From a virus: a stretch of DNA of 23,534 nt. The stretch is taken from positions 1 to 23,534 of the IMG/VR virus record IMGVR_UViG_3300025889_000965, one strand, 5' to 3'. Positions 6,057 to 23,534 of the stretch are shown piece by piece. The notes below the pieces were generated by a model. That model was not told where the DNA came from and ran no database searches. It worked only from the letters and a program-made list of their open reading frames with translations. The stretch's first letter is position 1, and each line of letters opens with the position of its first letter. Made by a program: the position numbers and the translations under genes.

Positions 6057-6287
6057 TCAGGGCAAGGCGAGGATCGAACGGTAATACGCCAAGACCTTGG
6101 AGCGCAAGTGCTTGGACACGTCCCGTTGACCCGAGAACCATGAGTAGACCGCACCCTTGGTCACGCCAAGGTCTGCGATGACTTGGTTCACAGGAACGCG
6201 CCTGTAGATGCACAGGCGACCAAGCTGCACACCGAGCAGGCTCGGGTCAGCGTCGGCGTTGCGCCGGATGATCTTTGTGGTGTACAT
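6057..6287 (-). CDS. Small HTH DNA-binding protein, Cro/CI-like (76 aa)
   Basis: The segment RVPVNQVIADLGVTKGAVYSWFSGQRDVS (about residues 29-57) has the spacing of a Cro/CI-type helix-turn-helix: a helix ending in LG, then V, then a recognition helix starting TKGAVYSWFSG. The protein is almost only this domain plus a short basic tail, so it likely binds DNA as a dimer. It sits immediately upstream of the primase-helicase (59-nt gap) inside the replication operon. It could be a regulator of the phage early genes, or an origin-binding factor; the sequence does not decide. The start ATG at 6287 has no clear SD and follows a GC hairpin. It is a reasonable candidate for recognising the TTTACTGGTAAA palindromes, but that link is speculation. 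Confidence 0.75.
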   Translation of the reverse strand: MYTTKIIRRNADADPSLLGVQLGRLCIYRRVPVNQVIADLGVTKGAVYSWFSGQRDVSKHLRSKVLAYYRSILALP

Positions 6288-7786: not shown

Positions 7787-9346
7787 CTACGGTTGAACTT
7801 TGGCTGTGTCAAGCACCTCCTCTCGATATAAGTTGAGCAGGGATTCCATGTCCTCGGTCTTGCCGTCGAGCGAGTCGTACAGCTTGCGCTCCACGCCACT
7901 GCCGCACAGCCTGACCACAAGGCAGGGGTTCTTCTGGCCCGCACGGTGCACGCGGGCGTTGGCCTGATGGTAGATCTCGTTCGACGTCACAGGGCCCCAC
8001 CACACAACCGTGTTGGCCGCATGCAGGGTCACACCGTGCGAAGCCGCCGCAGGCTGGATGAGCAGTACCCTTGGCTCAGGCTCGGTCTGGAACGCGGCAA
8101 AGATCCTCGTACGCTGGGCCACCGGTACGCTGCCGTCGATGACCTCGACAGCGATCTTGTCCTTCTTGAGCCGCTCTTCGAGCACCTTGATCGTGTGCCG
8201 GTACGGGACGAAGACCAGCACTTTGTGAGTGCTTTCCTCGATGGCTTCCAGCAGAACGTTGTAGCGGTTCGTGATGTCGAACTCGACAGTGTTACCGTCG
8301 TCAGAATACACCGCACCAGATGAGACTTGCAGGAGCTTGTTGAGGTTGGTCGCGGCATTGACTGACGTCACCGTCTCAGTGCCCGCCGACATGATGAACT
8401 GATCTTTCAGGAGCTTGTAATACTTAAGTTGTTGCGGTGTAAGTTCTACCTCCCGTGTGGTGTATAGAAGCTCTGGTAGGTCAAGGCACTCTTCCTTGGT
8501 GAAACGAATGGCGGGTTGAAGCACGCGGTTGACGATTTCCGCAGCGTTATTCTTCTGCTTCCATTTGAACTGCGTGACTTTCCACATCACCATGTCACGG
8601 AAGCTGTAGAAGTTCCTCGGCACCGAGTCGGGGTTCAGCATCTTGGCAAGGCCGTAGGCATCGGTCGGTGCTTGGGACGCCGGGGTGCCAGTTGCCATCC
8701 ATAGCCACGTGTCGGAGGTGATCAGTTCGTTGATAGCCTTCCACCGGTTGGTCGTCGCGGTCTTCACCGCGTTCGCCTCGTCAATGATGACAAGGTCGAA
8801 GCCCCCGGCCTTCAGCTCCTCCAGCACCGTCTGAACGCCGTCGAAGTTGATGATGACGAACTCGGCATCGGACTGAATGATCTTGGCCCGCTTGCGCCTG
8901 TCGCCATAGGCCACGTCGACGCGCCGGTGCATGACCACCTTGAACAGATCCGCCTGCCATGCCGAAGACATGATGGACAGAGGACAGATCACCAGTGCAC
9001 GTCTGATGTAGCCCTTGTTCATCAGGTAGTCAGCCGCCCATGCGAACGATGCGGTTTTGCCTGTGCCCGGGTCGTTGAAGCAGAAGGCCCGCTTGTGCAG
9101 CGTCATGAACGATGCTGTCGTCCGCTGGTGGTCGAAGGGCTTGTAGATCCCAGGCCACTTGTAGCGGCGCTCGATGGGGGAGGGTACCCCCTTGACGCCG
9201 ACGTTCTTCAGCACCCGCGCCTCATCCAGCCCCCAGTGGACAAGTACGCGACCATCGTCAAGCAACTTGCTTTTCGGGATGGTGTTCAGCACTCGCTGAG
9301 GGTTGCGGAGCTTCAACAGCAGGGCTTTGTTTTGTATTACTTCCAT
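7787..9346 (-). CDS. SNF2-like superfamily 2 DNA helicase/ATPase
   Basis: An ATP-driven DNA translocase or helicase of about 519 aa. In order: FDHQRTTASF (about 71-80, the Q-like motif), NDPGTGKTAS (Walker A, 91-100), LVIIDEANAVKT (motif II with D189, E190), ATGTP (motif III, 218-222), and near the C-terminus YHQANARVHRAGQKNPC, the SNF2-type motif VI. SNF2-like helicases of this size are common in phage replication regions. I prefer ATG 9346 (MEVIQNKALLL); a GTG four codons upstream (9358) is also in frame and is preceded by AAAGG. The gene overlaps the end of the upstream gene by 89 nt, which is unusually long for this window. Motif II reads DEAN rather than DEAH. Confidence 0.9.
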   Translation of the reverse strand: MEVIQNKALLLKLRNPQRVLNTIPKSKLLDDGRVLVHWGLDEARVLKNVGVKGVPSPIERRYKWPGIYKPFDHQRTTASFMTLHKRAFCFNDPGTGKTASFAWAADYLMNKGYIRRALVICPLSIMSSAWQADLFKVVMHRRVDVAYGDRRKRAKIIQSDAEFVIINFDGVQTVLEELKAGGFDLVIIDEANAVKTATTNRWKAINELITSDTWLWMATGTPASQAPTDAYGLAKMLNPDSVPRNFYSFRDMVMWKVTQFKWKQKNNAAEIVNRVLQPAIRFTKEECLDLPELLYTTREVELTPQQLKYYKLLKDQFIMSAGTETVTSVNAATNLNKLLQVSSGAVYSDDGNTVEFDITNRYNVLLEAIEESTHKVLVFVPYRHTIKVLEERLKKDKIAVEVIDGSVPVAQRTRIFAAFQTEPEPRVLLIQPAAASHGVTLHAANTVVWWGPVTSNEIYHQANARVHRAGQKNPCLVVRLCGSGVERKLYDSLDGKTEDMESLLNLYREEVLDTAKVQP

Positions 9347-13711: not shown

Positions 13712-13849
13712 TCAGAACAATGCGGGTTCACCTTGCCCACGTTGGGCACGGTCTTGCTTGGCGAACCACCGTGCGACCAGTACGCGCTCCGCGTCGGTCT
13801 TGAAGGGCCACGCCCAGCGGGCGAGTGTCAATCCTGATGGGTGCATCAT
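13712..13849 (-). CDS. Overlooked small basic protein (45 aa)
   Basis: This short gene fills what would otherwise be a 168-nt gap. Its ATG at 13849 overlaps the upstream TGA as ATGA, exactly like other junctions in the operon, and it is open for 45 codons to TGA at 13712. The protein starts MMHPSGLTLARWAWPFKTD and ends RGQGEPALF. It is rich in Trp and Arg and has a helical middle (AERVLVARWFAKQDRAQ). It has no transmembrane segment. No own SD is clear, so coupling is presumed. I do not know a function. Confidence 0.6.
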   Translation of the reverse strand: MMHPSGLTLARWAWPFKTDAERVLVARWFAKQDRAQRGQGEPALF

Positions 13850-14538
13850 ACGGTTTTCTTTACGACATAGTCATGGAAGACAGCGCCACGCGCTTTGTTG
13901 CCGACTTCACAGTTGCGAACCCAAACACACTTGTTGTTCTTGAGGTTGCGCCAGTGCCCCCGGCGCTCATGCCAACGGGGACTTGCATGTGTACCTCCTT
14001 GAGGTTCTGCCTTCGGTTTTGGCGGCTCTACAACGATGGTATTCCAATCATACAACGGCACCTTACCTTGGCGAATCCGTTTGGCATGGTTGGCCCGTTT
14101 TACTGGTAAATACCCGGTCGCAGTGCGGGAGTTCAGTGTCAATAGGAAGTGGGTTATAAGGGCGAGATAACCACCAGTATTGCCTTTCCCAACGACAAAA
14201 CCTGAACCGTCATAATGTGCGACTTGGATATGGCCTGATTCATCTGTCCTGTACTGAAACGCCATATCATCAAACACGTCCTTTTCGTCACGCGCCAGAG
14301 GTAAACATCCCGTTACGGTCCCTTCGTCGTTTTGCATAAGCAGCAGTAAATGGGACATATTTTTTATCTGGACGACGACTGCTACCATTTGGAAAGGAAG
14401 TCGCAACTTCGGTAACTCTGTACCTACATCTATGTACTCATCAGTTGTTTCTACCTCGAACCAGTGAAATTCTGTTGCATCAAAGTCTGCTGCTTCATTT
14501 GGCAGCAGGCTTGACATAGCAGCTATCAGCGGTGTCAT
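13846..14538 (-). CDS. AT-richer phage protein of unknown function with C-terminal basic module (230 aa)
   Basis: Start ATG 14538 (MTPLIAAMSS) has GGAGG at five bases and overlaps the previous stop as TGATG; earlier ATG and GTG codons have poorer spacing. The N-terminal 150 residues form a predicted mixed fold with a hydrophobic strand pair (FQMVAVVVQI, HLLLLMQN) and a helix YLALITHFLLTLN. The C-terminal part (about 185-230) has SPRWHERRGHWRNLKNNKCVWV followed by a short HDYVVKK tail (motif given in part as HERRGHWR and VWV). This His/Arg-rich ending recurs in many phage hypothetical proteins I have seen; its role is not known to me. Codon use is notably AT-rich relative to neighbours, suggesting separate acquisition. 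One TTTACTGGTAAA palindrome lies inside this gene. Confidence 0.7.
   Translation of the reverse strand: MTPLIAAMSSLLPNEAADFDATEFHWFEVETTDEYIDVGTELPKLRLPFQMVAVVVQIKNMSHLLLLMQNDEGTVTGCLPLARDEKDVFDDMAFQYRTDESGHIQVAHYDGSGFVVGKGNTGGYLALITHFLLTLNSRTATGYLPVKRANHAKRIRQGKVPLYDWNTIVVEPPKPKAEPQGGTHASPRWHERRGHWRNLKNNKCVWVRNCEVGNKARGAVFHDYVVKKTV
14099..14110. other. TTTACTGGTAAA palindrome (copy 1, inside a gene)
   Basis: The fourth copy lies within the coding sequence of the AT-richer 230-aa gene, encoding LPVK in that frame. Being intragenic, it may be coincidental or mark an internal regulatory site. Confidence 0.4.
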
Positions 14539-14603
14539 CATTCCCTCCACAACAAGAGAATCAGTGTGATAACGATGTTGGCAATCGCGATGAGTTCAAT
14601 CAT
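14538..14603 (-). CDS. Single-span membrane micropeptide (21 aa)
   Basis: ATG 14603 overlaps the upstream TGA as ATGA and has AAGGA six bases upstream; its own stop overlaps the next start as TGATG. The peptide is M-I-E followed by about fifteen hydrophobic residues (LIAIANIVITLILLLW) and ends R-E, which is the shape of a single transmembrane helix. It is far below usual gene-finder limits. Possible roles are a membrane-active regulator or inhibitor. The overlaps on both sides and the SD argue for real translation, though it could also serve mainly as a coupling peptide. Confidence 0.55.
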   Translation of the reverse strand: MIELIAIANIVITLILLLWRE

Positions 14604-14824
14604 GGTTTGTCCTTCGTTGGCGGGTTCCAGATCCATATGACAGCCTTGGCTTCCGTCTTCCCGCACTTGGACAGCAGGCCCTCGTCTTCCAGAGCCTTGC
14701 GCCAACGGTAGATCGTGCCTCTGTCGAGCCCGGTCAGCTCAGTCAGTTCGTCAATGGTTCTCGGGGCCTTGACCCACAAAGCCAGCATGTCTGCGCACTT
14801 CTTGATGTTGTCAGATCTTGCCAC
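14600..14824 (-). CDS. Small winged-helix/HTH protein (74 aa)
   Basis: The start is a GTG at 14824 (MARSDNIKK) with AGGAGG four bases upstream; it overlaps the DUF3310 gene by 14 nt. Residues about 20-50, RTIDELTELTGLDRGTIYRWRKALED, form a clear helix-turn-helix, followed by EGLLSKCGKTEAKAVIWIW, which looks like the wing hairpin of an MarR/IclR-like winged helix. It therefore probably binds DNA and acts as a small phage regulator or as a modulator of host transcription. It lies in the middle of the small-gene block. No ligand-binding domain is present. Confidence 0.75.
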   Translation of the reverse strand: MARSDNIKKCADMLALWVKAPRTIDELTELTGLDRGTIYRWRKALEDEGLLSKCGKTEAKAVIWIWNPPTKDKP

Positions 14825-15023
14825 CTTCCCTCCTCTTAATCTCCCGGTCGATATACCACCGAGCCTTCTTGAGATCCTCGATGGCGTCGTGTTTCAGGTC
14901 GGCACGCCAGATGTACTTGACGGCGTTGCCGAGGCAGAAGTTCATGTGCTCGGTGATCTGGATGCACTCGACACCTGACGGGTGCTCGGTGTAGTGCTGG
15001 GGGCGGTTGACTGGGTCGTGCAT
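14811..15023 (-). CDS. DUF3310 protein (70 aa)
   Basis: The sequence DPVNRPQHYTEHPSGVECIQITEHM followed by NFCLGNAVKYIWRADLKHDAIEDLKKARWYIDRE (quoted in parts: NRPQHY, ECIQ, NAVKYIWR, DLKKARWYI) is the recognisable DUF3310 pattern, a family widespread in phages, also called SaV-like. Some members are annotated as nucleotide kinases, without firm support. Start ATG 15023 (MHDPVN) has GGAAG at about seven bases; an ATG five codons upstream lacks a signal. The length matches the family. The function is unknown, but its strong conservation in phages suggests a common role in early infection. Confidence 0.88.
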   Translation of the reverse strand: MHDPVNRPQHYTEHPSGVECIQITEHMNFCLGNAVKYIWRADLKHDAIEDLKKARWYIDREIKRREGGKI

Positions 15024-15175
15024 TGTGATTCTTCCCATACAAGCATGAGCAGTTCTGCTGCTCGGGCAATGTGCGTAATAAGCGCTGCGTGGTGCAGCTT
15101 GTCTTCGATGCCGTCAACGTAGCCAGCTAACCAACTGGCGGTTGTCAGACACTGGAGTTCCTGATTGGGGGTCAT
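14942..15175 (-). CDS. Small unknown protein overlapping DUF3310 (77 aa)
   Basis: The first ~50 residues (MTPNQELQCLTTASWLAGYVDG, then HHAALITHIARAAELLMLVWEE) look like a genuine helical protein. The ATG at 15175 has GAGGA six bases upstream. The last 25 residues (Ser/Thr-rich) read through the start of DUF3310 in another frame and look like shadow sequence. Either the protein truly overlaps its neighbour by 82 nt, or a frameshift has removed its original stop. I do not recognise a family. No membrane segment is predicted with confidence, although ITHIARAAELLMLVW is fairly hydrophobic. Confidence 0.55.
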   Translation of the reverse strand: MTPNQELQCLTTASWLAGYVDGIEDKLHHAALITHIARAAELLMLVWEESQCTTQSTAPSTTPSTRQVSSASRSPST

Positions 15176-15326
15176 ACGGTATCCTCATTTCACAAGGAAC
15201 CCCTTCGAGTTCCCACGGGCCAGTCCACGTCTGCCGATCATGCGGCGGGGCGGTGAATCTGCAACAGGTGTTGCACTCGGCAGCACCGTACCCTGCGCAG
15301 CGGGCGACGTCGGCGGGGAGGGTCAC
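15114..15326 (-). CDS. Small Cys-rich conserved phage protein (70 aa)
   Basis: The start is a GTG at 15326 (VTLPADVARCAG) that overlaps the upstream TGA as GTGA; GGGGAGG lies about eight bases upstream. Cysteines at 10, 18, 21, 22 and 45 (ARCAG, ECNTCCRFTAP, PCEMRI) suggest a small zinc- or metal-binding fold. The LPADVARC...C..C.R.TAP...CE.RI pattern is one I associate with short genes in Burkholderiales phages and prophages; the function is unknown. The final residues overlap the next gene by 62 nt. Confidence 0.65.
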   Translation of the reverse strand: MTLPADVARCAGYGAAECNTCCRFTAPPHDRQTWTGPWELEGVPCEMRIPYDPQSGTPVSDNRQLVSWLR

Positions 15327-15490
15327 GATGCCGCCCTCCCCTGCTCGTACTCCTCGCGCTTGTCCATCGCGTGATGCACCCAGACATTGGGCCACTCTGC
15401 ATCCTCGGTGGGTTTGCACCAGCAGTCGGGGCTGGCGTAATGATCGCGCAGGTCGTTCACGGGGACAACGTGGACTCGTTCGGTGGTCAT
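15323..15490 (-). CDS. Small conserved phage protein (55 aa)
   Basis: Start ATG 15490 (MTTERVHVVPVNDLRDH) has AAGGAG six bases upstream and overlaps the upstream stop as ATGA. The protein has a CWCKP motif (C23, C25) followed by acidic residues and VWVHHAMDKREEYE, giving conserved-looking Cys and His positions, possibly metal-binding. It is an old acquaintance among short phage genes of Proteobacteria by pattern, without known function. It is below common gene-length cut-offs and is supported by its excellent SD and both-side overlaps. Confidence 0.7.
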   Translation of the reverse strand: MTTERVHVVPVNDLRDHYASPDCWCKPTEDAEWPNVWVHHAMDKREEYEQGRAAS

Positions 15491-15849
15491 GTCTTGCTCC
15501 TTGCTCGGATGACGCGGGCAAAGTAATCGCCCCACACTTGGCACTGTCCACTGAATGTCTCCTTCGCTTTGTCGTCGCACACTCTTGCGCACGCCTCGCG
15601 CTCCATCAGCACCTCAACCTCCAGCCCTTCCGAAATCTGCGTTCCGAGGTGGTCCAGCAGGTCTTCGATGGTGTCGCCGCGGCCGGTGGCGTAGCCCAGG
15701 TTGCGCATCCAGTGAGCGACCTTTTCGCGCTCTGCTGCGGCGACGATGGCGGCGAAGCGGGTAAGCTCACCATGTTCAAGCACGAAGAACTTGCCGTCTT
15801 CGTACAGCCCGGCCTCTCGCGCCATGCGGATGATGTCGTCTTGGGTCAT
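15487..15849 (-). CDS. Conserved phage protein of unknown function (120 aa)
   Basis: Start ATG 15849 (MTQDDIIRMAREAG) has AAGGAG eight bases upstream. The protein has an N-terminal helix, then ELTRFAAIVAAAEREKVAHWM, a charged helical middle with LLDHLGTQISEGLEVEVLME, and a C-terminal helix with ACARVCDDKA and FARVIRARSK. The pattern MTQDDIIRMAREAG...F..LV..AERE...CA.VC is common in phage and metagenomic sequences and is annotated as hypothetical. It is coupled by ATGA overlaps to genes on both sides, as part of a string of short early genes. Confidence 0.75.
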   Translation of the reverse strand: MTQDDIIRMAREAGLYEDGKFFVLEHGELTRFAAIVAAAEREKVAHWMRNLGYATGRGDTIEDLLDHLGTQISEGLEVEVLMEREACARVCDDKAKETFSGQCQVWGDYFARVIRARSKT

Positions 15850-16205
15850 GCGTTCTTCTCCTTCAGCGCGGCCTCGATGGCGCGGGCAAAGCTATACGGT
15901 TTGTAATCGCTGCGCAAAGATGACGAAAATAGCGCGCTGATCTCATCATCCGTCAGCGACCGCCACTCGCGGCGTGGTGGGTGGGGGAAAAGAGGGATGG
16001 TGTGTGATCCGTACACGGTGTCCGGGCGCGAGAATTCAAGTCGCTCTTTTCCACGGCTCATCCACGCCACCGGCTCCTGCTCCTCCTGCGCCAGCGCGTC
16101 GCGGAGGGCGGTGATGGCCTTTGCTTGCGCTGGAGTACGCCAATCCGGCAATTCGCCTTCCATCGCCTCCAGCGCCTGCTGGGCGGCTTCACGTAGGGTG
16201 GTCAT
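15846..16205 (-). CDS. Conserved phage protein of unknown function (119 aa)
   Basis: Start ATG 16205 (MTTLREAAQQALEAM) has GGAGGT six bases upstream and overlaps the upstream stop as ATGA. The layout is an N-terminal helix (REAAQQALEAMEGELPDW), a helix with KAITALRDALAQEEQ, then EPVAWMSRGKERLEF, a Pro-rich turn (TIPLFPHPPRREW) and a C-terminal helix after SLTDDEISALF. The PVAWM...PLF..PP...LTD.EI arrangement recurs widely in phage proteins of unknown function. Neighbouring gene ends in a similar AIEAALKEKNA helix style, but no homology between them is claimed. Confidence 0.75.
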   Translation of the reverse strand: MTTLREAAQQALEAMEGELPDWRTPAQAKAITALRDALAQEEQEPVAWMSRGKERLEFSRPDTVYGSHTIPLFPHPPRREWRSLTDDEISALFSSSLRSDYKPYSFARAIEAALKEKNA

Positions 16206-16390
16206 CCCAACACCTCCGCAATCACCAGGCCCACCATCATCGCAACGGCGGCGATCGTCACCGCCTCCATCAGTGCAGACGGCTTCGGCCTGGGCCACAG
16301 ATCCGGCGTCGGGGTGCTGGCCTCGCGGTACGGGCAGCAGCGGCCCTGTTCGCACAGGCCGTCGCAGCAGGTACGATCTTCTGTCTTCAT
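16202..16390 (-). CDS. Small Cys-rich membrane protein with C-terminal helix (62 aa)
   Basis: Start ATG 16390 (MKTEDRTCC) has AGGAGG eight bases upstream and overlaps the preceding stop as ATGA. The N-terminal part is cysteine-rich (C8, C9, C13, C18, C19), followed by a Pro-rich linker (TPTPDLWPRPKP). The last ~22 residues, MEAVTIAAVAMMVGLVIAEVLG, form one transmembrane helix (residues about 41-62). Tail-anchored topology with the Cys-rich head in the cytoplasm is the simplest reading. It is not lysis-like in context; it might act on a host envelope or membrane process early in infection. Confidence 0.65.
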   Translation of the reverse strand: MKTEDRTCCDGLCEQGRCCPYREASTPTPDLWPRPKPSALMEAVTIAAVAMMVGLVIAEVLG

Positions 16391-16539
16391 GGTGCGATCC
16401 TCCTGACAGGTTGAGCCAGCAGCCACTTGCTGCCGAGGTTGCGGATGGCGCGGGCCCATGCCCGCTGGTTGTGCCGATCGAGGCGGCGGTCGCCCGAGGC
16501 CCACAGGGCCCGGGCACGGCGTAGCATTTTGGTGTTCAT
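16387..16539 (-). CDS. Overlooked small basic protein (50 aa)
   Basis: ATG 16539 overlaps the upstream TGA (ATGA) and has GAAGG just before it; the stop overlaps the next ATG as ATGA. The protein (MNTKMLRRARALWASGDRRL..., later HNQRAWARAIRNLGSKWLLA) is very basic and helical. The RRARALW...NQRAWARAIR.LG.KWLLA pattern is one I recognise from short phage genes of Burkholderiales, always unnamed. It fills the only otherwise empty gap between two coupled genes, which supports reality. It could bind nucleic acid, judging by charge alone. Confidence 0.65.
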   Translation of the reverse strand: MNTKMLRRARALWASGDRRLDRHNQRAWARAIRNLGSKWLLAQPVRRIAP

Positions 16540-16838
16540 TCCTTCACCTCGTACCCTGCGTTGCGCAGCGCCTGCGGGATGTCCATCGCACCCTTGAAGC
16601 TGCCCGGGAGTTCAAGCCACTCCGCTACCACGCCGTCAGGGCAGGCACCGAAGATGTACGTCTCGGGGTCAAGGAGCCCCGGGATGTTGTCGATTTCAGG
16701 AATGCCCGTAGCCTTGGGCGTAACAGCACTCACTACAACGTACTCGTGACCCTCGTGCGGGGGCTCCATGCGGAACAGCTCCGCTTCGCCCCGGAAACTG
16801 TCCAGCTTCTTGATCTTGTGTGCAATCTTGTTCGTCAT
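16536..16838 (-). CDS. Conserved phage protein of unknown function (100 aa)
   Basis: Start ATG 16838 (MTNKIAHKIKKLDSF) has GGAG seven bases upstream; the longer frame crosses a terminator and is rejected. The first part KKLDSFRGEAELFRMEPP is followed by EYVVVSAVTP, then YIFGACPDGVVAEWLELPGSFKG. This strand-rich pattern (K.L..F.G.A.L.R..PP...YVVVSA...TYIF..D..G.V..W.ELPGS) is common in phages and is annotated only as hypothetical. It is the first gene after the 16864-16892 terminator. Confidence 0.75.
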   Translation of the reverse strand: MTNKIAHKIKKLDSFRGEAELFRMEPPHEGHEYVVVSAVTPKATGIPEIDNIPGLLDPETYIFGACPDGVVAEWLELPGSFKGAMDIPQALRNAGYEVKE

Positions 16839-16863
16839 CTGTGCTCTCCAAAAGCGTTTAGCC

Positions 16864-16892
16864 AACAAAAACGCCCTACCGAGGTAGAGCGT
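16864..16892 (-). terminator. Rho-independent terminator with CUCG tetraloop
   Basis: On the minus strand a 9-bp stem ACGCTCTAC/GTAGGGCGT (one T-G wobble) closes a CTCG loop of the extra-stable UNCG-like type and is followed by TTTTTGTT. On plus the arms are 16871-16879 and 16884-16892. It lies between two minus-strand genes and would end or attenuate transcription coming from the right, in particular the unit starting at the candidate promoter near 17280. Confidence 0.8.
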
Positions 16893-16915
16893 TGAGTGAT
16901 GAAACCAGGGACCTG

Positions 16916-17167
16916 TCAGGCGGTGCGCCACACGCGCAGGCCATCCGACATCACGGCGGTGCGGGTCTCCAAGCCTTCGAACTTCTTCCGTGCGTTCAGC
17001 ACCTTGCGACGCCACGAGTCCACCAGCTTCTTGCCCTCGTCACCCGACGGGTCGAAGGGGATCAGGAAAGAGTGGCCGACTCCCATGTCAGCGAACGGGA
17101 ACGTGGTGCCACGACGGCCCGGGCGGGTGCCCTTGGGAATGGAAACGCCTGCTTCGATTTGGAACAT
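16916..17167 (-). CDS. Small conserved phage protein, DUF7303-like (83 aa)
   Basis: Start ATG 17167 (MFQIEAGVSIPKG) has GAGG five bases upstream. The pattern IPKGTRPGRRGTTFPFADMGVGHSFLIPF followed by a charged helix (SWRRKVLNARKKFE) and TRTAVMSDGLRVWRT is one I know from phage proteins that appear under a DUF label (I believe DUF7303). The basic helix and R/K-rich loop might bind nucleic acid. It is the only gene in this stretch with both a candidate promoter upstream and a clear terminator downstream, so it may be expressed separately and strongly. Confidence 0.72.
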   Translation of the reverse strand: MFQIEAGVSIPKGTRPGRRGTTFPFADMGVGHSFLIPFDPSGDEGKKLVDSWRRKVLNARKKFEGLETRTAVMSDGLRVWRTA

Positions 17168-17181
17168 GTTGTCCTCTGATG

Positions 17182-17230
17182 CGCCCGTTGAGTAGCAGCG
17201 GGCGAAGGGTTAGCGCACCGGGGTCGGTGC
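17182..17230 (-). other. Two hairpins in leader upstream of the 83-aa gene
   Basis: Two stems lie in tandem: CGCCCG/CGGGCG (17182-17187 with 17199-17204) and GCACCG/CGGTGC (17215-17220 with 17225-17230, 4-nt loop). Neither has a U-tract on the minus strand. Together with the promoter they make a structured 5' untranslated region. Confidence 0.5.
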
Positions 17231-17264
17231 TTGATTGACGGCTACTCCGTTGATTGGTGGGTCG

Positions 17265-17294
17265 ACTCTATCACTTCTGAAGGAGACGCGTCAA
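17265..17294 (-). promoter_or_regulatory. Candidate sigma70-type promoter, leftward
   Basis: On the minus strand TTGACG (17289-17294) is followed after 18 nt by TAGAGT (17265-17270), matching -35 in 5 of 6 and -10 in 4 of 6 positions. The -35 overlaps the stop codon of the preceding gene, and the only gene before the next terminator is the 83-aa one. The -10 is weak, so this is a moderate call. Confidence 0.35.
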
Positions 17295-17548
17295 CCCTCG
17301 ATAGGCTCAATCCAGTACGAACTTTCACCTACCCGCACACCGATGCTGTAGATCGTCTCGGGGTGTCCAGCGTCCAGCAGCGCCATCGCCTCAAGCATCC
17401 ACTGGGGCAGCACATCGCGACGGTAGGTACCGGTGCGCAATTCCTCAGGCATCGGCGGGTAAGTCGTGACGTAGACGTACTCCGGGGGCAGGTTCGAGGA
17501 AGCGTTGATGTGGTAGGACGACTTGGGGTTGCGCTTGGGGTCAAGCAT
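17291..17548 (-). CDS. Small unknown protein (85 aa)
   Basis: Start ATG 17548 (MLDPKRNPKSSYH) has AAGGA five bases upstream and overlaps the previous gene by 8 nt. The middle reads NLPPEYVYVTTYPPMPEELRTG, then RDVLPQWMLEAMALLDAGHPETIYSIGVRVG and SSYWIEP. It appears to be a small soluble alpha/beta protein with no metal, nuclease or membrane signature. I do not recognise a named family. Coupled to the upstream gene. Confidence 0.68.
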   Translation of the reverse strand: MLDPKRNPKSSYHINASSNLPPEYVYVTTYPPMPEELRTGTYRRDVLPQWMLEAMALLDAGHPETIYSIGVRVGESSYWIEPIEG

Positions 17549-17843
17549 TGGATTCCTTCTTGGCTCTCTGTTCCGCCCGCTCCTGCTCTTCCTTGGCGTC
17601 GGCAGCGGCCCGCATCGTTGCGAACTGCACCGGGCCCAGTGTGCTGATGCTGGGCATGTTGTCGCCTGTCAGCGGCACTGCCATCTCCCTGTTGTTGATG
17701 TAGTCTTTGGAATACCACGTCTGGATCTTGTAAACATCGTGGCCAGAGAAGAGTTCAAAGATCGCCATCGCTGCCTCTTTCGGCACGATGAACTTGTTGT
17801 GGTCGATGGACAGAATCACTTTGTCGAACTGTGCTTTGCTCAT
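17541..17843 (-). CDS. Unknown protein with charged C-terminus (100 aa)
   Basis: I chose ATG 17843 (MSKAQFDKVILSIDHNKF) because CTCTAGGAACTATC precedes it, a leader that recurs before other genes here. An in-frame ATG at 17918 also has GAGG six bases upstream and would add 25 residues (MTRRVDTAKR...) read from a structured leader; I regard that as less likely. The protein has a compact first 75 residues (VPKEAAMAIFELFSGHD, YKIQTWYSKDYINNREM) and a highly charged helical tail (AAADAKEEQERAEQRAKKES). Function unknown. Confidence 0.68.
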   Translation of the reverse strand: MSKAQFDKVILSIDHNKFIVPKEAAMAIFELFSGHDVYKIQTWYSKDYINNREMAVPLTGDNMPSISTLGPVQFATMRAAADAKEEQERAEQRAKKESNA

Positions 17844-17862
17844 GATAGTTCCTAGAGTTGAG

Positions 17863-17902
17863 GGGGTGACACCCGGTCCGCGCCGGGACCGTTTCGCGGT
17901 GT
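17863..17902 (-). other. Nested hairpin in leader of the 100-aa gene
   Basis: On the minus strand GACACC ... GGTGTC enclose GGTCC-CGGCGC-GGACC, giving a nested stem just upstream of the CTCTAGGA ribosome-binding leader. It starts at the very end of the preceding gene. This arrangement (GC hairpin then CTAGGA) repeats at other gene junctions in the window. Confidence 0.5.
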
Positions 17903-18156
17903 CAACGCGCCGCGTCATACAACGCCTCGACCACCTTGAACGGCGGTGCTTCGACGTCGATGGTCGTTTGCCACAACGTGTTGTTGGGTAGTATTGCCTC
18001 TACCTTCCACGGTGTGTTTGCTTTCCTACTGATCTCGGCAATCATCCTGTACGGTCCTCCGTCTACTGACTCTCGCAGTACGTAGACCAGCAGGCCTGCG
18101 CCTCCGAAGTCGAACCAGAGTCTGTTGGGTCTCAGTGTGTCACTTGGCAGCGTCAT
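17902..18156 (-). CDS. Unknown protein, tandem paralogue A (84 aa)
   Basis: Start ATG 18156 (MTLPSDTLRPNRLWF) has GGAGG six bases upstream and overlaps the previous gene by 17 nt. The sequence has LWFDFGGAGLLVYVLRES, PYRMIAEISRKANTPWKVEAILPN and ends EAPPFKVVEALYDAAR. Its last ~12 residues closely match the end of the next gene upstream (EDPPFQLAEALYDAAK), and both have a Trp-led strand followed by a similar spacing, so the two are likely tandem duplicates that have diverged. Function unknown; probably a small soluble beta-rich protein. Confidence 0.68.
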   Translation of the reverse strand: MTLPSDTLRPNRLWFDFGGAGLLVYVLRESVDGGPYRMIAEISRKANTPWKVEAILPNNTLWQTTIDVEAPPFKVVEALYDAAR

Positions 18157-18436
18157 ACAGTGCCTCCGCTAATTGGAACGGTGGGTCTTCACTCGGTGGG
18201 AGTTTCATCTGGCACGTCTTGTCCATAGGCCAGCGCGGCGTTGTGGTGAGAGTCCACCCAGGCTCCCCCTTGATGCGTGACAGCACCGCTTGTTGTTTAG
18301 CCGTGCCATACCCCTCCGGCATGATGTAGGGTATGTACAGGCTGTAGGCTTCAACGAGCTTGTCCTCGACAGAGTGCCAGCTCCGCCCCTCACCGAGGGG
18401 CTTGGGTACCTCCGGTACCGCGTCATGCTGGGACAT
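18140..18436 (-). CDS. Unknown protein, tandem paralogue B (98 aa)
   Basis: Start ATG 18436 (MSQHDAVPEVPKPLGEG) has GGGGGAG about seven bases upstream and overlaps the VWA gene by 14 nt. It contains KLVEAYSLYIPYIMPEGYGTAKQQAVLSRI (quoted in part: YIPYIMPEGYG), GWTLTTTPRWPMDKTCQMKLPP and ends PPFQLAEALYDAAK. The C-terminus resembles paralogue A. I do not recognise a named family. It follows the VWA gene directly and could be co-translated with it, but I have no evidence that it belongs to that module. Confidence 0.68.
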   Translation of the reverse strand: MSQHDAVPEVPKPLGEGRSWHSVEDKLVEAYSLYIPYIMPEGYGTAKQQAVLSRIKGEPGWTLTTTPRWPMDKTCQMKLPPSEDPPFQLAEALYDAAK

Positions 18437-19634
18437 ACAGCGTCTCCCCCACCGGGGCGCGGAGCCCCTTGGTGCTGATGCACCACAGCGTCGGGTGCTT
18501 GAGGTCCGCAGGCCACGGCGTGTAGCCATCGGTGAAGACGATCACCGCGTTGGGGTTCAGCCCCCGCTGGTCGATGAAGTTGAACAGGGCCCGCACGTCG
18601 GTACCCCCGCCGCCCTTGGGCTTCGTCGCCTTGACGATGTCCTGCACCCGCTCGCCCTCGTAGGACTCGTGTGCTGCGACCGCCCAGTCCCAATAGATCA
18701 CGTCGACCATCTGCGGAGTGACGGCCTCGCAGGCTGCGGCGACCTCGCTCAGTGCACGTCGGAGTTGCTCGTCGCCAATCGAGCCGCTGGTGTCTATGCC
18801 GATGACGATGCGGTCGACCGCTTCTGTGTACCGGGAGGGGAGGTAGAGATCCTGCCCGAGCCAGCGTCGAGCGGGCCGAGCCCACGTCGACAAGTCGCCG
18901 CCCTTGGCGGTGTTGGTCAGCCAGTCACGCAGCACGTCCTGCCAGGGCACCACAGGCTCAAGGAGAGCCTCGATGTCACGGGACATGCCAGCACCCGTCT
19001 TGCCTGCGATCAGCGCCCCTTGGCGCAGCGCGTTGTCGACAGCCTTGGCTACCTCCTCGGCCTCGGCCTGAGTCAGAGGTGCAGGTCCACCCTCTTCACC
19101 GTCGCCGTCCCCGTCGCCCGCCGCAGGCTGATGCTGGTCGAACTGCTGACCCTTGGGGCTGTTGCCACTGCCGCCCCCGCCGCCCTGCGGCTTGGACTGC
19201 GCCTGTTGTTTGAGCCGCCTGTACACCTCACCGGTGTCCAGCCCATCGTACTGCGGGTCACAGTACGCGTTCTCCCAGATGGTGATGAACTGCCCACCCG
19301 GGTCCATCGACTTGAGCATGTTGTTGATCACCATGTCCTTGGCGATGTTGGACAGTTGCGCGTCGTCCTTGTCGAGCTTGGCCCAGGTCGTCATGTGCAT
19401 CAACATCACGTGGAAGTACTCGTGCAAGACAACAAACCTTAACAACCTATCATCACATTGATTGACGAAGGCTCGGCCATAAAAGACGTCACGTCCGTTG
19501 GTTGCCGCAGTGGGCACGTCGTCCACCACTTGCCATGAGCCGACCATCAGGATCGGTGAGATGGCGGTGAAGCGCTCGTCGCGCATGATCTTGCTACGGG
19601 CCTTGGTGATGCGCTCTTCTGCTGTCAGGTTCAT
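18423..19634 (-). CDS. VWA protein with metallopeptidase-like N-terminus (CobT-like, DUF2201/VWA-like)
   Basis: 403 aa. The N-terminal part has HEYFHVMLMH (H71, E72, H75), a zinc-metallopeptidase HExxH motif within a region like the putative metallopeptidase domain (PF13203). A Gly/Gln/Asp-rich linker (about 147-188) follows. The C-terminal VWA domain has the MIDAS motif DTSGS (D281-S285), GGTD (T345, D346) and FTDG (D369), so a metal-ion-dependent adhesion site is intact. The combination is the VWA-like/DUF2201 family, which typically works with a MoxR-type AAA+ ATPase; that ATPase is encoded just upstream (19879-20940). Whether the HExxH site is active is unknown; in relatives it may bind metal or act as a scaffold. 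Start ATG 19634 overlaps the previous stop as ATGA. Confidence 0.88.
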   Translation of the reverse strand: MNLTAEERITKARSKIMRDERFTAISPILMVGSWQVVDDVPTAATNGRDVFYGRAFVNQCDDRLLRFVVLHEYFHVMLMHMTTWAKLDKDDAQLSNIAKDMVINNMLKSMDPGGQFITIWENAYCDPQYDGLDTGEVYRRLKQQAQSKPQGGGGGSGNSPKGQQFDQHQPAAGDGDGDGEEGGPAPLTQAEAEEVAKAVDNALRQGALIAGKTGAGMSRDIEALLEPVVPWQDVLRDWLTNTAKGGDLSTWARPARRWLGQDLYLPSRYTEAVDRIVIGIDTSGSIGDEQLRRALSEVAAACEAVTPQMVDVIYWDWAVAAHESYEGERVQDIVKATKPKGGGGTDVRALFNFIDQRGLNPNAVIVFTDGYTPWPADLKHPTLWCISTKGLRAPVGETLYVPA

Positions 19635-19834
19635 GACAACTCCTCGACGATCCCGCCTTCCGGCATGTTGATGGGCAGTTCACGTAATAGATTCACATAC
19701 ACAAGTCTATCACCTGTGTCAGCGATAGTGCTTGCAAATCGTTCCGCGCTTTCCCTGTCGGGTGAATTGAATATCCAACGAGTGTACGTGTTCTGTCGGT
19801 GGTTGTAGAACTTGGCGAAGTAAAGGTTGGTCAT
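19631..19834 (-). CDS. Small unknown protein between AAA+ and VWA genes (67 aa)
   Basis: Start ATG 19834 (MTNLYFAKFYNHRQ) has AGAGGA five bases upstream in a CTAGAGGA leader; its stop overlaps the VWA start as ATGA. Residues 15-45 (YTRWIFNSPDRESAERFASTIAD) form a strand-helix pair, and the C-terminus is acidic (EGGIVEELS). It has no recognisable motif. Being inserted inside an ATPase-VWA pair, it might be an adaptor or substrate of that module, which is speculation. Confidence 0.65.
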   Translation of the reverse strand: MTNLYFAKFYNHRQNTYTRWIFNSPDRESAERFASTIADTGDRLVYVNLLRELPINMPEGGIVEELS

Positions 19835-19845
19835 AGTGGTCCTCT

Positions 19846-19863
19846 AGCCCCCGTGAGGGGGCG
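19846..19863 (-). other. GC hairpin before CTAGAGGA leader
   Basis: The sequence GCCCCCGTGAGGGGGC (19847-19862) is a 6-bp perfect inverted repeat with a 4-nt loop. On the minus strand it comes immediately before CTAGAGGACC and the start codon of the 67-aa gene. Confidence 0.6.
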
Positions 19864-19878
19864 GGTTGTGGTGGGTTA

Positions 19879-20940
19879 TCAGCCCATGATCCAGTTGTTA
19901 GCCGTGCACCACTTGGTGAATGAGGCGTTCAGGGCTGCAAACTTCGCACGCTGCGGGATACGCAGGAACTGGTTGACGAACACTGCTTGCAGCTCCATCG
20001 GCAAGCGCTTCATGTACACCATGACGGCGTCGAGCGTGTCCTCTGTGGTGCGAGTGATCGCACGGTGCACCAGCATCATGCACATCGTCGGCGTGTCGGG
20101 CACCGGGGCTTGGAGCGGGCTCGTCACGATCGCCCTCCACGAGGGCAGCTTGTTGCCCATCTGCACGTAGACGTGCAGATCAGCGGCGGCGCGAGCGCCG
20201 ATCAGGCCAGCGAGCAGGCCCCGCATGGTGTCGTCATCGAGGTGCTCGGCGTCGTTGAGCACGCGACCGGCAGCGGTCATGCTGCGCGGAGAGCAGAAGG
20301 CCTTGCGACTCGGGTCCTTGCGGTGCCAGATGTAGGGGTTCTGGTCCGGGTTGGCCACGGTGTCGTCGTCGGCCAGCACCTGCGGGGTCTCATCCACCCA
20401 CGCCAGGACGGCGGGGTTGCCGTCGTTGGCCAGCGAGTAGTTCTTGTACTCCTCGACGGTGGGCTTGCGCATCGCGATCACCGACATGCGGTTGCGGACA
20501 TGCAACTGGAGCGTGTCACCCACACCCTCGGAGCTGAGGTTCGTGGTACAAAAAACAACGCTATCTCCGACAGAATTGTCTCTGGGAAGTGGACGGTTCC
20601 CCACCCGGCGGTCGAGCACGACGGGGAGCAGTGCGTTCTGAACACTGCGCGGAGCCTTACCGAACTCGTCCAGGCAGATGACGACAGGCTGTTCGCCATG
20701 CACACCGAACACCTCGTTGGGATAGAAGGTGCTGGTCCCCGTGGTGTGGTTGACGCTCGGGATCTGAATGTCACCCACGTCGATCTGGGTGCAGTCGATG
20801 TACACCTTGCGGTGCGCCGGCATGTTGAGCATGCCGAGGATGGAGGACTTGCCCGAGCCCGAGGGGCCCTCGATCAGGACGGTGGTGTGCTGGCCGACGG
20901 CGTTGATGGCGGCGGCGCATTGGTTGATGCTGAGCTTCAT
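19879..20940 (-). CDS. MoxR/CobS-like AAA+ ATPase
   Basis: 353 aa. GPSGSGKSS (Walker A, residues 25-33), VVICLDEFGKAP (Walker B, D91/E92), CTTN (sensor 1, 131-134) and HVRNRM (arginine-finger-like R149/R151) mark an AAA+ ATPase of the MoxR/CobS type. Proteins of this type use ATP to remodel or load metal/cofactor into a partner, usually together with a VWA protein; in cobalamin synthesis CobS pairs with CobT. The VWA partner is encoded 45-245 nt downstream, and a DUF3150 protein upstream. Start ATG 20940 has the leader CTAGGAAGCACATC. The C-terminal 150 residues are less conserved and end with CTANNWIMG, a possible partner-recognition region. Confidence 0.88.
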   Translation of the reverse strand: MKLSINQCAAAINAVGQHTTVLIEGPSGSGKSSILGMLNMPAHRKVYIDCTQIDVGDIQIPSVNHTTGTSTFYPNEVFGVHGEQPVVICLDEFGKAPRSVQNALLPVVLDRRVGNRPLPRDNSVGDSVVFCTTNLSSEGVGDTLQLHVRNRMSVIAMRKPTVEEYKNYSLANDGNPAVLAWVDETPQVLADDDTVANPDQNPYIWHRKDPSRKAFCSPRSMTAAGRVLNDAEHLDDDTMRGLLAGLIGARAAADLHVYVQMGNKLPSWRAIVTSPLQAPVPDTPTMCMMLVHRAITRTTEDTLDAVMVYMKRLPMELQAVFVNQFLRIPQRAKFAALNASFTKWCTANNWIMG

Positions 20941-20982
20941 GATGTGCTTCCTAGAGGTTTAACCCGGGCCTTGCCCGGGCGG
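20936..20982 (-). promoter_or_regulatory. Repeated CTAGGA leader and GC hairpin before the AAA+ gene
   Basis: The leader CTAGGAAGCACATCATG is repeated exactly upstream of the 66-aa gene (21182-21202); including flanking bases 21 nt are identical. Behind it, on the far side from the start, CCCGGGC-AAG-GCCCGGG (20963-20979) forms a 7-bp hairpin. Confidence 0.6.
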
Positions 20983-20985
20983 GGT

Positions 20986-21186
20986 TTACTTGACGAAGTT
21001 ATCCTTGGTCCAAATGACGAGCATACGAGCGTCAAGCACGGCGTCTTTAACGGACTCGAAATACTCGGGGGAGAACTCCATCATTGGGTTCTCTGACATC
21101 AGGTAGCGCTCCAGATCTGTGCTCGCAGCGGAGAGAAGGCGGTCGATTTCGCGCACAGCGTCTTGGATGTTGTCGGGTTGTTTCAT
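20986..21186 (-). CDS. Small helical protein in the AAA+/VWA module (66 aa)
   Basis: Start ATG 21186 (MKQPDNIQDAVREID) uses the repeated CTAGGAAGCACATC leader, which the longer frame lacks. The protein is helical and acidic (RLLSAASTDLERYLM, EYFESVKDAVLDARMLVIW), with no membrane segment. It is unknown, and lies between DUF3150 and the AAA+ ATPase. Its shared leader with the ATPase gene suggests co-regulation. Confidence 0.65.
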   Translation of the reverse strand: MKQPDNIQDAVREIDRLLSAASTDLERYLMSENPMMEFSPEYFESVKDAVLDARMLVIWTKDNFVK

Positions 21187-21236
21187 GATGTGCTTCCTAG
21201 AGATTGATTTACTGGTAAAGGGGCCGAAGCCCCGGG
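21182..21236 (-). promoter_or_regulatory. Leader with CTAGGA repeat, TTTACTGGTAAA palindrome and UUCG hairpin
   Basis: From the start codon outwards on the minus strand: CTAGGAAGCACATC (21-nt repeat 21182-21202), the 12-bp palindrome (21208-21219), and a 5-bp stem with a UUCG loop GGGGC-TTCG-GCCCC (21220-21233). The stem is followed by CTTTACC on the minus strand, so it could partly terminate upstream transcription. Confidence 0.55.
21208..21219. promoter_or_regulatory. TTTACTGGTAAA palindrome (copy 2)
   Basis: A 12-bp palindrome between the UUCG hairpin and the CTAGGA leader of the 66-aa gene, 22 nt upstream of its start codon. Confidence 0.6.
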
Positions 21237-21238
21237 GT

Positions 21239-22171
21239 TCAAAGAGCGAACTTGTCGAGGATGTCGTCCATCGCCTGCTTCGTGGCATGCTGGAGTTCAG
21301 GGCTCTCCTTCAGCGAGCCCATGTCGACGCGGGTCAGTGCCCGCTCCAGATCACGCCGCGCTTCCTCAAGGCGCGGGTCGTTGGTGATGTTGAGGTCCGA
21401 CAACATCTTGCACAGCTCAAGGCCCTGTTCGAGCATCGAGTCGTAGAGCTTGGGGCGACGGCGCTTTTTGATCTCGACCGACACCACCGTGCCGGTGTCG
21501 TCAGTCGTGGGGACCTCCTCCACCTCGTCGGGGTCGTACTCAAGCACGGCGGTCATCCTCTCCCGCACCCACTCGACCTGGGACTTCACGCGCTGCCACG
21601 TGTCAGCCACAGCACCGGCCACACGCTCGGCGGTGGCCTTCTCGTACTGCTCAGCGAGGTGACGCTGTGCCTCGTGGCCGATGTCGACCCGGAAGTCGCC
21701 CGACGAAGGCAGTGGGCTGAGGGATAGCCCGAAGCGGAACTTCGCCGCCACCTCATCGGCCAGCGGGTACTCGCTGCGGTCGAAGAGCGAGCCCATCTCG
21801 AAGGCCTGCTTGCTGATGGCCGTGCCATAGGTGGACACGAAGACCTTCACCAGCCCGTTGAACTTGGTTTCAAACTCCGCCACCTTGGCGGTGATGTCGA
21901 GGTACTGGCGGGTGGTGATGAGGCGTGCACGGTTGTCATCCCACGGCAAGGTGCGGGAGTTGAACCACACGCGGGCCTCGCTGCGCAAGGTCTTGATGGC
22001 CTCGAGTTCAGGGCACTCGCTGAACAGGTTCTTCGAGACACTCGCTGCCTTCTTGGACTTGGCACCCTTGGTGGCCAGGACTTCGTCCTTCGTCCGCTTG
22101 TCTTGGATTCGTGCTTCCCATACAGATATGTTGAGGCTGCCGAGCATGGCGGCGGTGGTGATGTCGATCAT
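21239..22171 (-). CDS. DUF3150-type protein, partner of AAA+/VWA module
   Basis: 310 aa. The start ATG 22171 (MIDITTAAMLGSLNISVWEAR) has GGAG six bases upstream. The N-terminus (IQDKRTKDEVLATKGAKSKKAASVSKNLF) is followed by ELEAIKTLRSEARVWFNSRTLPWDDN, then ARLITTRQYLDITAKVAEFETKF (motifs in parts). This is the layout of DUF3150 proteins, which start with a short basic segment and an IKTLRSE...W..RTLPWDD core. The C-terminal half is highly charged and helical, with likely coiled coil. DUF3150 genes are commonly found beside CobS-like ATPase and CobT-like VWA genes in phages, plasmids and integrative elements; here they are again in the same order. Its biochemical role is unknown. Family call rests on motif memory. 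Confidence 0.75.
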   Translation of the reverse strand: MIDITTAAMLGSLNISVWEARIQDKRTKDEVLATKGAKSKKAASVSKNLFSECPELEAIKTLRSEARVWFNSRTLPWDDNRARLITTRQYLDITAKVAEFETKFNGLVKVFVSTYGTAISKQAFEMGSLFDRSEYPLADEVAAKFRFGLSLSPLPSSGDFRVDIGHEAQRHLAEQYEKATAERVAGAVADTWQRVKSQVEWVRERMTAVLEYDPDEVEEVPTTDDTGTVVSVEIKKRRRPKLYDSMLEQGLELCKMLSDLNITNDPRLEEARRDLERALTRVDMGSLKESPELQHATKQAMDDILDKFAL

Positions 22172-22187
22172 TTCACTCTCCGGTGAT

Positions 22188-22201
22188 GCCCCCGAAGGGG
22201 C
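22188..22201 (-). other. UUCG hairpin upstream of DUF3150 gene
   Basis: GCCCC-TTCG-GGGGC on the minus strand forms a 5-bp stem with an extra-stable UUCG loop, just upstream of the ribosome-binding site of the DUF3150 gene. No U-tract follows. Confidence 0.6.
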
Positions 22202-22210
22202 GGGGTTGGG

Positions 22211-22441
22211 TTAATTAAACGTGATGAAACACACGAGGCATTCCCCGTGCGGGCGGAGTTCGATCATGTCGCCATGATCGACGGTGACGGTGCGCTTACC
22301 CGTCCAACCCACGGCGTGCTTGGCACGTCGCACGATGCTGTACCTGCTCAAGGCGTCGGGGGCTTCGAGCGTGGCACGCTTGACCCAACCGTAGTTGGGT
22401 TCGTGACCGAACGTGTCGGTCACTTCGATGTTGATGTTCAT
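22211..22441 (-). CDS. Small unknown protein (76 aa)
   Basis: Start ATG 22441 (MNINIEVTDTFGHEPNYGW) has AGAGGA at five bases. The protein is strand-rich: residues 1-45 contain NYGWVKRATLEAP and ALSRYSIVRRAKHAVGW, and the end has RTVTVDHGDMIELRP and CLVCFITFN. A similar arrangement of N-terminal strand, WVKRAT and RRAKHAVGW.GKRT is known to me from phage hypothetical proteins. No membrane or metal signature is certain, though C-x2-C (LVC) occurs near the end. The 12-bp palindrome lies 14 nt upstream of its start. Confidence 0.68.
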   Translation of the reverse strand: MNINIEVTDTFGHEPNYGWVKRATLEAPDALSRYSIVRRAKHAVGWTGKRTVTVDHGDMIELRPHGECLVCFITFN

Positions 22442-22454
22442 GATGTCCTCTTAG

Positions 22455-22466
22455 TTTACCAGTAAA
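22455..22466. promoter_or_regulatory. TTTACCAGTAAA palindrome (copy 3)
   Basis: This 12-bp near-perfect palindrome lies 14 nt upstream of the 76-aa gene start and next to AGAGGA. The same sequence, in one or the other orientation, occurs at 14099-14110, 21208-21219 and 23517-23528. Confidence 0.6.
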
Positions 22467-22469
22467 TTG

Positions 22470-22679
22470 TCAGCGGAACAGTCCGCCCTTGTTGTTGATG
22501 CCATGCAGGTCCCGCTTGTCGGTCAAGAGCACGTAGTTCGATTTGTGCATGGGCACCACCGTCCAGCTCTTGCGCTCTTGTCGAGCGTCCTCCTCACCAC
22601 ACCACAGGCAGAGCCTGTAGCCGAGGGCGGTACGCCGGGGGTCGATGTCGTCCCCGCAGCGGGGGCATGTGTTCGTCAT
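22470..22679 (-). CDS. Small zinc-finger protein (69 aa)
   Basis: Start ATG 22679 (MTNTCPRCGDDIDPRR) has AAGGA five bases upstream. C5 and C8 (CPRCG) with C24 and C27 (CLWCGE) form a four-cysteine zinc ribbon with 15-residue spacing, a little like the TraR/DksA-type pattern (C..CG..I...R......C..CG). The remaining part has SWTVVPMHKSNYVLLTDKRD and ends with a basic NNKGGLFR. Close relatives are common in phages, unnamed. Likely binds nucleic acid or a host polymerase; that is inference. Confidence 0.78.
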   Translation of the reverse strand: MTNTCPRCGDDIDPRRTALGYRLCLWCGEEDARQERKSWTVVPMHKSNYVLLTDKRDLHGINNKGGLFR

Positions 22680-22680
22680 A

Positions 22681-22881
22681 TCAGTCCTTCGCGCCCTTGC
22701 GGGCGGGGTTGAGGTTGTCCGGTGCCACGGGGATGTCCCCCGTGCGCTTGCAGTACTCGACGCAATCGTCGTGTGATGCGTGGCGCATCACCGACAGGTG
22801 CCCGGTCGGGTTGTAGCTCGACCACTGCGTGGGATGGCTGAGCTTGGGGAGCCCCGCCTTGAGTTGGTGCCATGAGGGCAT
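22681..22881 (-). CDS. Small unknown protein (66 aa)
   Basis: Start ATG 22881 (MPSWHQLKAGLPKLS) has GAGG six bases upstream and follows the GP88-like gene stop by one base. The protein is polar, with HPTQWSSYNPTGHLSVMRHASHDDCVEYCKRTGD (in parts: HLSVMRHASHDD, CVEYC), and ends NPARKGAKD. His and Cys residues are frequent, so metal binding is possible. I do not recognise it. Confidence 0.62.
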   Translation of the reverse strand: MPSWHQLKAGLPKLSHPTQWSSYNPTGHLSVMRHASHDDCVEYCKRTGDIPVAPDNLNPARKGAKD

Positions 22882-22882
22882 G

Positions 22883-23500
22883 TCAGTACCTCTTGACCTT
22901 CTCGACGATGGTGGTCACGCCGTTGCCGGGGGTGTAGCACAGCAGGCAGTCAGCACACTTCTGCCCGGTGCAGTTCTGCTGGTCTACGTGCTCGTGCTCC
23001 AGCACGTTGTTGAACGTGCGGTCGAAGTGCTTCGGCGGGCGCTTCATGATGCTGCTGATCTTGGGGTTGCTGTAGATCAGGATCAGGTTGGCGGGCTTCG
23101 GCGTGGTACGGAAGAACTTCGACACGATGTCGTTGCGCTTGGTCCACAGGGCGAAGGACGTGCGCGGGTTGCGCTCGCAGATGAGCACGAGGTTCTGCAA
23201 GTGTGTGTCGTTGATCAGCTCCCCGTGCGCGTCGAAGCGGAAATACGCGTCCGTGATGCGCGGCAGTTCTGCCTCCGCCAGAACCCGCGAAGCGAGGGCG
23301 TCGCTGTTGCGTTGGAGGGCTGGCTGCATGTTCTTCCGATAGGAAGACAGCATGGTGTGGCTGTAGCACTTGGTGCAGATGTTGTCTGCGTCGCCCGAGG
23401 CGTTCTGCTTGATGCAGTACGGGTTGGTGCGCGTGTTGGTGCTGATGGCACGCAGGCCGTCCAACTTGCCCGTCATGGTCGAGATGTGGATAACGTTCAT
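22883..23500 (-). CDS. GP88-like Cys-rich phage protein (205 aa)
   Basis: Start ATG 23500 (MNVIHISTMTGKLDGL) has AAGGAG about ten bases upstream; the 12-bp palindrome lies 17-28 nt upstream of the ATG. Cysteines C29, C42 and C45 near the N-terminus (PYCIK, ICTKCYSH) and C177, C182, C185 and C188 near the C-terminus (NCTGQKCADCLLCYTP) form two metal-binding-like clusters. The CTKCY...N..AL layout and second cluster resemble the GP88 family (named after mycobacteriophage gene 88), which may relate to iron-sulfur or radical-SAM-like proteins. Function is not known to me. The middle has NPRTSFALWTKRNDIVSKFF and NLILIYSNPK, a strand-helix-strand segment. It is the first complete gene of the transcription unit seen here. 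Confidence 0.5.
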   Translation of the reverse strand: MNVIHISTMTGKLDGLRAISTNTRTNPYCIKQNASGDADNICTKCYSHTMLSSYRKNMQPALQRNSDALASRVLAEAELPRITDAYFRFDAHGELINDTHLQNLVLICERNPRTSFALWTKRNDIVSKFFRTTPKPANLILIYSNPKISSIMKRPPKHFDRTFNNVLEHEHVDQQNCTGQKCADCLLCYTPGNGVTTIVEKVKRY

Positions 23501-23534
23501 GCTACTGACTCCTTTATTTACCAGTAAACACTGG
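23501..23534 (-). promoter_or_regulatory. Leader of GP88-like gene with palindrome copy 4 and overlapping inverted repeat
   Basis: TTTACCAGTAAA occurs at 23517-23528. It overlaps a second inverted repeat on the minus strand, CCAGTGTTTACTGG. AAAGGAG follows towards the gene. The window ends here, so a promoter may lie just outside. Confidence 0.5.

Follow-up and report, generated by a model that had tools for sequence, protein, structure and literature searches.

Operator-like palindromes of an uncultivated phage lineage change class with the N-terminus of a putative early regulator

The immunity regions of lambdoid phages carry an exchangeable regulator together with its cognate palindromic operators on a common backbone, as known from the CI operators of heteroimmune phages. 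In Cluster A mycobacteriophages (L5, Bxb1), stoperators are asymmetric sites of 13-14 bp, which occur 20-30 times per genome, are oriented with transcription, and are bound by a monomeric repressor with an N-terminal HTH, the L5 regulator being 183 aa long (PMC6550527, PMC9283540). In Cluster K mycobacteriophages, short repeats (SAS/ESAS) stand directly before many start codons, part of them with inverted repeats; the SAS is the asymmetric GGGATAGGAGCCC at the ribosome-binding site, for which a role in translation was suggested and no binder is known (PMC3203893). The palindromes described here have only their position in common with SAS: the sequence is different, palindromic and upstream of the ribosome-binding site, and, unlike SAS, the sites are also found at a promoter and in an origin-like stretch, and switch together with a protein. 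Comparable dispersed palindromic operators were sought in the literature and none were found.

The window is the whole stretch of DNA analysed, an IMG/VR virus record of 23,534 bases, which is probably a fragment and ends 6 nt past its outermost palindrome copy. It is a 23.5-kb piece of an uncultivated phage lineage of ~62-67 kb. Twenty related contigs were fetched with the MoxR-like ATPase of the window as query, and the contigs of several relatives, 36-67 kb in size, were analysed over their whole length. The ends of one relative (G008) were identical over 124 nt, so it was taken as a closed genome, the only relative known to be closed. No close isolate was found, because the best large-terminase matches (including pelagiphage HTVC023P and phage DSL-LC04) were <50% identical.

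A sequence-only reading of the window had reported four copies of a 12-bp palindrome, in excess of chance, and both points were borne out. Exact copies of TTTACTGGTAAA exist at four places (Table 1). The palindrome is imperfect at its centre only, and each place also matches the opposite strand with 2 mismatches; with <=2 mismatches allowed, 0.32 matches were expected from shuffled sequence, and 0/100 shuffles reached 8. The reversed, non-complemented control pattern gave no match in the window or in the 20 related records. Three copies are intergenic and stand in the leaders of minus-strand genes starting at 21186, 22441 and 23500, as had also been said.

Table 1. Palindrome copies and genes of the window referred to in the text
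Feature	Position	Strand	Remark
Operator-like palindrome	23517-23528	-	TTTACTGGTAAA on minus strand; 16 nt before start of GP88-like gene
Operator-like palindrome	22455-22466	-	13 nt before start of 22211-22441
Operator-like palindrome	21208-21219	+	TTTACCAGTAAA on gene strand; 21 nt before start of 20986-21186
Fourth palindrome copy	14099-14110	+	inside reading frame 13846-14538 (minus); reads YLPVK
GP88-like gene (PF17338)	22883-23500	-	leader carries 23517 site
76-aa conserved protein (phrog_22729, unknown function)	22211-22441	-	downstream of 22455 site
66-aa reading frame	20986-21186	-	downstream of 21208 site; sits between its leader and MoxR-like gene
MoxR-like AAA ATPase gene	19879-20940	-	query for relatives
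74-aa winged-helix protein	14600-14824	-	missing in closed G008
76-aa HTH protein	6057-6287	-	conserved across all operator classes tested

The leader sites keep their position in a relative (G001), where the counterpart of the 22455 site (at 8766) is again 13 nt before the orthologue, and the place orthologous to the 21208 site precedes the MoxR-like ATPase gene itself by 21 nt. The leader sequence TTCATGATGTGCTTCCTAGAGRTT occurs twice in the window (20936-20959 and 21182-21205, 96%), and the 66-aa frame therefore seems to have been inserted before the MoxR-like gene via leader duplication, after which the operator remained with the upstream TTCATGATGTGCTTCCTAGAGRTT copy. In this part of the window (18423-22171), the MoxR-like AAA ATPase, a DUF2201 metallopeptidase/VWA-like partner and a DUF3150-like protein are encoded together, as they are in the relatives examined. 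Outside the lineage, the leaders of 12 GP88-like homologues were inspected and had no palindrome site, and the motif was present anywhere in only 1 of 80 GP88-like homologue loci. The in-gene copy at 14099 is common to three relatives (G002, G003 and G005); it borders a block nearly identical among these and the window, with one flank diverged, and possibly marks a recombination edge, to judge from this pattern.

The exact motif was present in 12 of the 20 related records. The consensus over 35 unique copies was the 14-bp RTTTACYRGTAAAY, which is palindromic around a pyrimidine-purine centre and has the half-site R-TTTAC-Y; a purine flanks the core at 63/70 positions. When all classes of site (see below) were counted in 14 related records, with gene calls from a simple in-house caller, 61 of the 66 sites fell within the 11% of sequence outside gene interiors. 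About 3-8 sites exist per genome or fragment, and four recurring kinds of place could be distinguished. The first (P) is the divergent promoter region adjoining the terminase small subunit (TerS) gene; the copy at this place is often imperfect. In class A phages it lies just upstream of TTGACG-N16-TATAGT, so that it precedes the -35 box. The second (O) is an origin-like noncoding stretch of ~0.7-0.95 kb, which follows the first early gene and holds terminator-like hairpins as well as ACGCGAG repeats; two sites, 39-109 nt apart, are often present in it. The third (L) is the leader 3' of an HNH-like gene, with a site ~34-51 nt downstream of the -10 box of a near-consensus promoter. The fourth (G) comprises early-gene leaders, including those of the window, with the site immediately upstream of the ribosome-binding site. 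Promoter-like sequence was sought around the three leader sites of the window (20800-23534) and none was found. Judged by their sequences, the sites are DNA palindromes that very seldom fall inside genes and keep fixed places across relatives. The suggestion of an operator set, a DNA-binding control site for neighbouring genes, withstood the refutation proposed along with it, most sites being outside gene interiors and the motif recurring at the matching leaders of relatives.

The leader after the HNH-like gene is itself a noncoding region of ~0.5-0.7 kb (L079:2204-2862, minus strand; L092, L106, L109, L112, L116 and others). It contains the near-consensus promoter, a boxA-like GCTCTTTA and a conserved block GGTAAGA..GGAAAGAC, which folds with covariation (changes on both sides in 7/22 pairs). 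It looks like an antitermination or regulatory RNA.

Relatives without the RTTTACYRGTAAAY motif carry different palindromes at its places, giving about ten classes in all. Beside class A these are B (RTTAAACRYGTTTAAY), C (GTTATACASTGTATAAC), D (GTTAGKAANNTTMCTAAC), E (around GTTAACCG..GGATAAC), F (GTTAACCRCGGTTAAC), G (GTTATCCNNNGGATAAC), H (TTATACAYCGTATAA), I (TTATAACG(CG)TTATAA) and J (ATTATCCYRGGATAAT), with classes E to J represented by one to three loci each. Composite sites such as TTTACTGTTAAACGCGTTTAAC, with one half of a class A site overlapping a palindrome of class B, were observed as well (G012 29885 and 32189, G010 39793, G009 7370). In a low-GC (0.35) phage (L215, 4094 nt; L216, IMGVR_UViG_3300025543_000085, 36922 nt), TTTACTAGTAAA/TTTACCAGTAAA is present in four to five copies, several of them as TTTACTAGTAAAcgcaaaaggag upstream of start codons; its sequences gave no match to the alignment of the regulator family described below, and its palindromes are perhaps an independent case.

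The sequence-only reading had named two proteins of the window as candidate binders, and neither fits. Among phages whose palindromes differ, conservation of the 76-aa HTH protein is 67-100%; as it does not vary by operator class, it is unlikely to be a class-specific reader. The 74-aa winged-helix protein is also an unlikely reader, since its distribution does not fit that of the sites, which the closed genome carries. A better candidate than both, from comparison of the relatives' sequences, would be the product of the first early gene, beyond the contig end. The window stops short of its own copy of this gene, and a search for the exact window end in other viral contigs gave 0 matches; if the leader sites of the window are cognate, its regulator would be of class A.

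With an alignment of TerS, 62 loci were fetched. The first early gene is divergent from and adjoins the TerS gene, is single copy in each genome where it was found, and encodes a protein of ~160-222 residues, whose C-termini are related while the N-termini are very different. Regulator genes of classes A, B and C are, for example, those at G008 22506-23069, G015 32076-32582 and G016 54134-54769, respectively. When 34 non-identical regulators were clustered by the N-terminus only, an operator class (A-D, at P plus O) was shared in 80/92 pairs within clusters and in 6/469 pairs between clusters; none of 5000 permutations of N-terminal cluster against operator class reached the observed value, the maximum being 31. 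Only classes A-D entered this test because classes E-J were defined on the loci where they were found. One class A copy in L083 was the only stray site in the tested P and O regions. For prediction of the same operator, the AUC was 0.998 with the regulator N-terminus, 0.92 with its C-terminus and 0.68 with TerS. A graded relation between half-site and N-terminal similarity across classes was not significant (Mantel p 0.44).

A TerS identity of 98-100% went together with different classes, namely B, C, D, F and I, or A and C; for example, both regulator and operators differ between the TerS-identical L070 (class A) and L064 (class C). In L116 and L111, 89% of the last 45 residues of the protein were shared and 13% of the first 95, and the operators were different. 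The class thus follows the N-terminus across near-identical backbones, which argues that protein and sites travel as a module and that specificity tracks the N-terminus. In the sampled loci, the palindrome class at the promoter and the origin-like stretch changes with the regulator N-terminus and not with the phage backbone. The protein had no Pfam or PHROG family match, and two models of moderate confidence (mean pLDDT 73.6 and 81.5) gave no convincing fold match in the PDB.

The palindrome is a putative operator, and its reader is probably a phage-encoded and most likely dimeric regulator, the product of the first early gene. We infer that the regulator binds through its N-terminal part, by which the dimer would recognise palindromes of the cognate class. 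Occupied sites of the early region might in turn block RNA polymerase in the early operon. A block of elongation would fit better than a block of initiation, since the early-leader site lies that far past the -10 box and the leaders of the window are promoter-less; a site ahead of the -35 box, as at P, would also be compatible with activation. The N-terminus and its cognate operators would be exchanged jointly between phages.

A first alternative, rather unlikely in our judgement, is that the copies in gene leaders, including the three of the window, are read by a second protein of phage or host, and that the first early gene product reads only the promoter and origin-like sites. It draws on the class C and D phages, whose gene-leader sites belong to class A, B or F, many of them still exact, despite a resident C or D regulator. 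These sites match no regulator encoded in the genome and are thus without a reader there: no further member of the first-early-gene family is encoded in those phages, and a second regulator gene sought in class C phages to explain their A/B leader sites was not found. In phages of classes A, B, F and G, however, most leader sites share the class of the resident regulator, as expected with one reader and recent module exchange elsewhere, and the HTH proteins of the window are invariant with operator class. The mismatched leader sites of class C and D phages would be either leftovers of recent module exchange or sites read by another protein.

It is distinctly improbable that the palindrome is in the first place a replication or partition site, at which a protein dimer would mark or start the origin, with the leader copies secondary. 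One or two copies do lie, as a rule, in the long noncoding stretch with ACGCGAG repeats, and these repeats are densest in that stretch in 6/7 genomes. Yet the repeats are unchanged when the palindrome class changes, and copies closely precede the ribosome-binding sites of several early genes and stand in a promoter leader. In addition, a ParA-type ATPase (PF13614) had no match in 10 records, the closed genome among them, and the control gave matches in 14 genomes; the partition-type site also put forward from the sequence was dropped on this ground.

That the palindrome forms an mRNA-leader hairpin controlling translation is very improbable: sites do stand 13-21 nt before start codons and flanks lengthen the stem at some copies, but over the 35 unique sites flank pairing and covariation were not above shuffles (p >= 0.12), a copy lies upstream of a promoter's -35 box, both orientations occur, and the palindrome class switches with the protein. 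The lack of outer-flank pairing beyond chance favours DNA recognition over an RNA hairpin, and the idea of translational control was given up; Rfam gave no match above gathering scores on four related loci.

The reading of the palindrome as operator of the first early gene product has a further, weaker part. In near-identical phages, the matched pairs might, most speculatively, constitute specificity groups for superinfection immunity or exclusion. Tentatively, and with somewhat less than even confidence, the proteins may be a new regulator family with no recognisable DNA-binding domain and ~ten specificity types in one uncultivated lineage, whose N-termini and cognate operators are swapped between otherwise near-identical phages, so that the locus would be polymorphic for superinfection immunity (or exclusion) although integration and partition genes are apparently absent. 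Family matches to integrases or resolvases were sought and not found, and TerS had no relative in the genome_contigs collection. Lysogeny is therefore unsupported, since no integrase, resolvase or ParA was found; an unintegrated prophage is possible.

The sequence-only reading seems to have seen a true operator set, the binding of which we infer. The main interest lies in the relatives, in which regulators of a protein family not named so far form polymorphic pairs with their operators. Matched pairs with many natural specificities are rare, and this set offers some ten types of protein and the DNA sites of each, domain exchanges that arose in nature, and terminase-identical phages differing at the locus, so specificity would be directly testable with a natural set. 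The set further suggests that a locus diversifying like an immunity system may be present in phages with no visible lysogeny genes, which bears on competition between such phages within one cell.

The Cluster A stoperator system is the nearest known one, and the palindrome system here is not a member of it. Unlike stoperators, all site classes here are palindromic and have no fixed orientation (the gene strand reads TTTACTGGTAAA at some sites and TTTACCAGTAAA at others, and symmetry is complete at many), and the sites are roughly 3-8 per genome instead of 20-30; no relative of the regulator family was recognised, and searches for an integrase and for ParA gave nothing. As in Cluster A, short extragenic sites are repeated, some at promoters and most not, the site sequence varies by group with the phage's own regulator, and the regulator is of similar length (183 aa in L5, 160-222 aa here); the protein here is a putative repressor, and the site placement is compatible with a Cluster A-like elongation stop. 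In contrast to lambdoid phages, the operators are dispersed over the early region. The module showed no recognisable CI/Cro pair, and no HTH was recognised in the protein by the Pfam, PHROG and fold searches. As in those phages, palindromic operators stand at early promoters and are exchanged together with the regulator gene.
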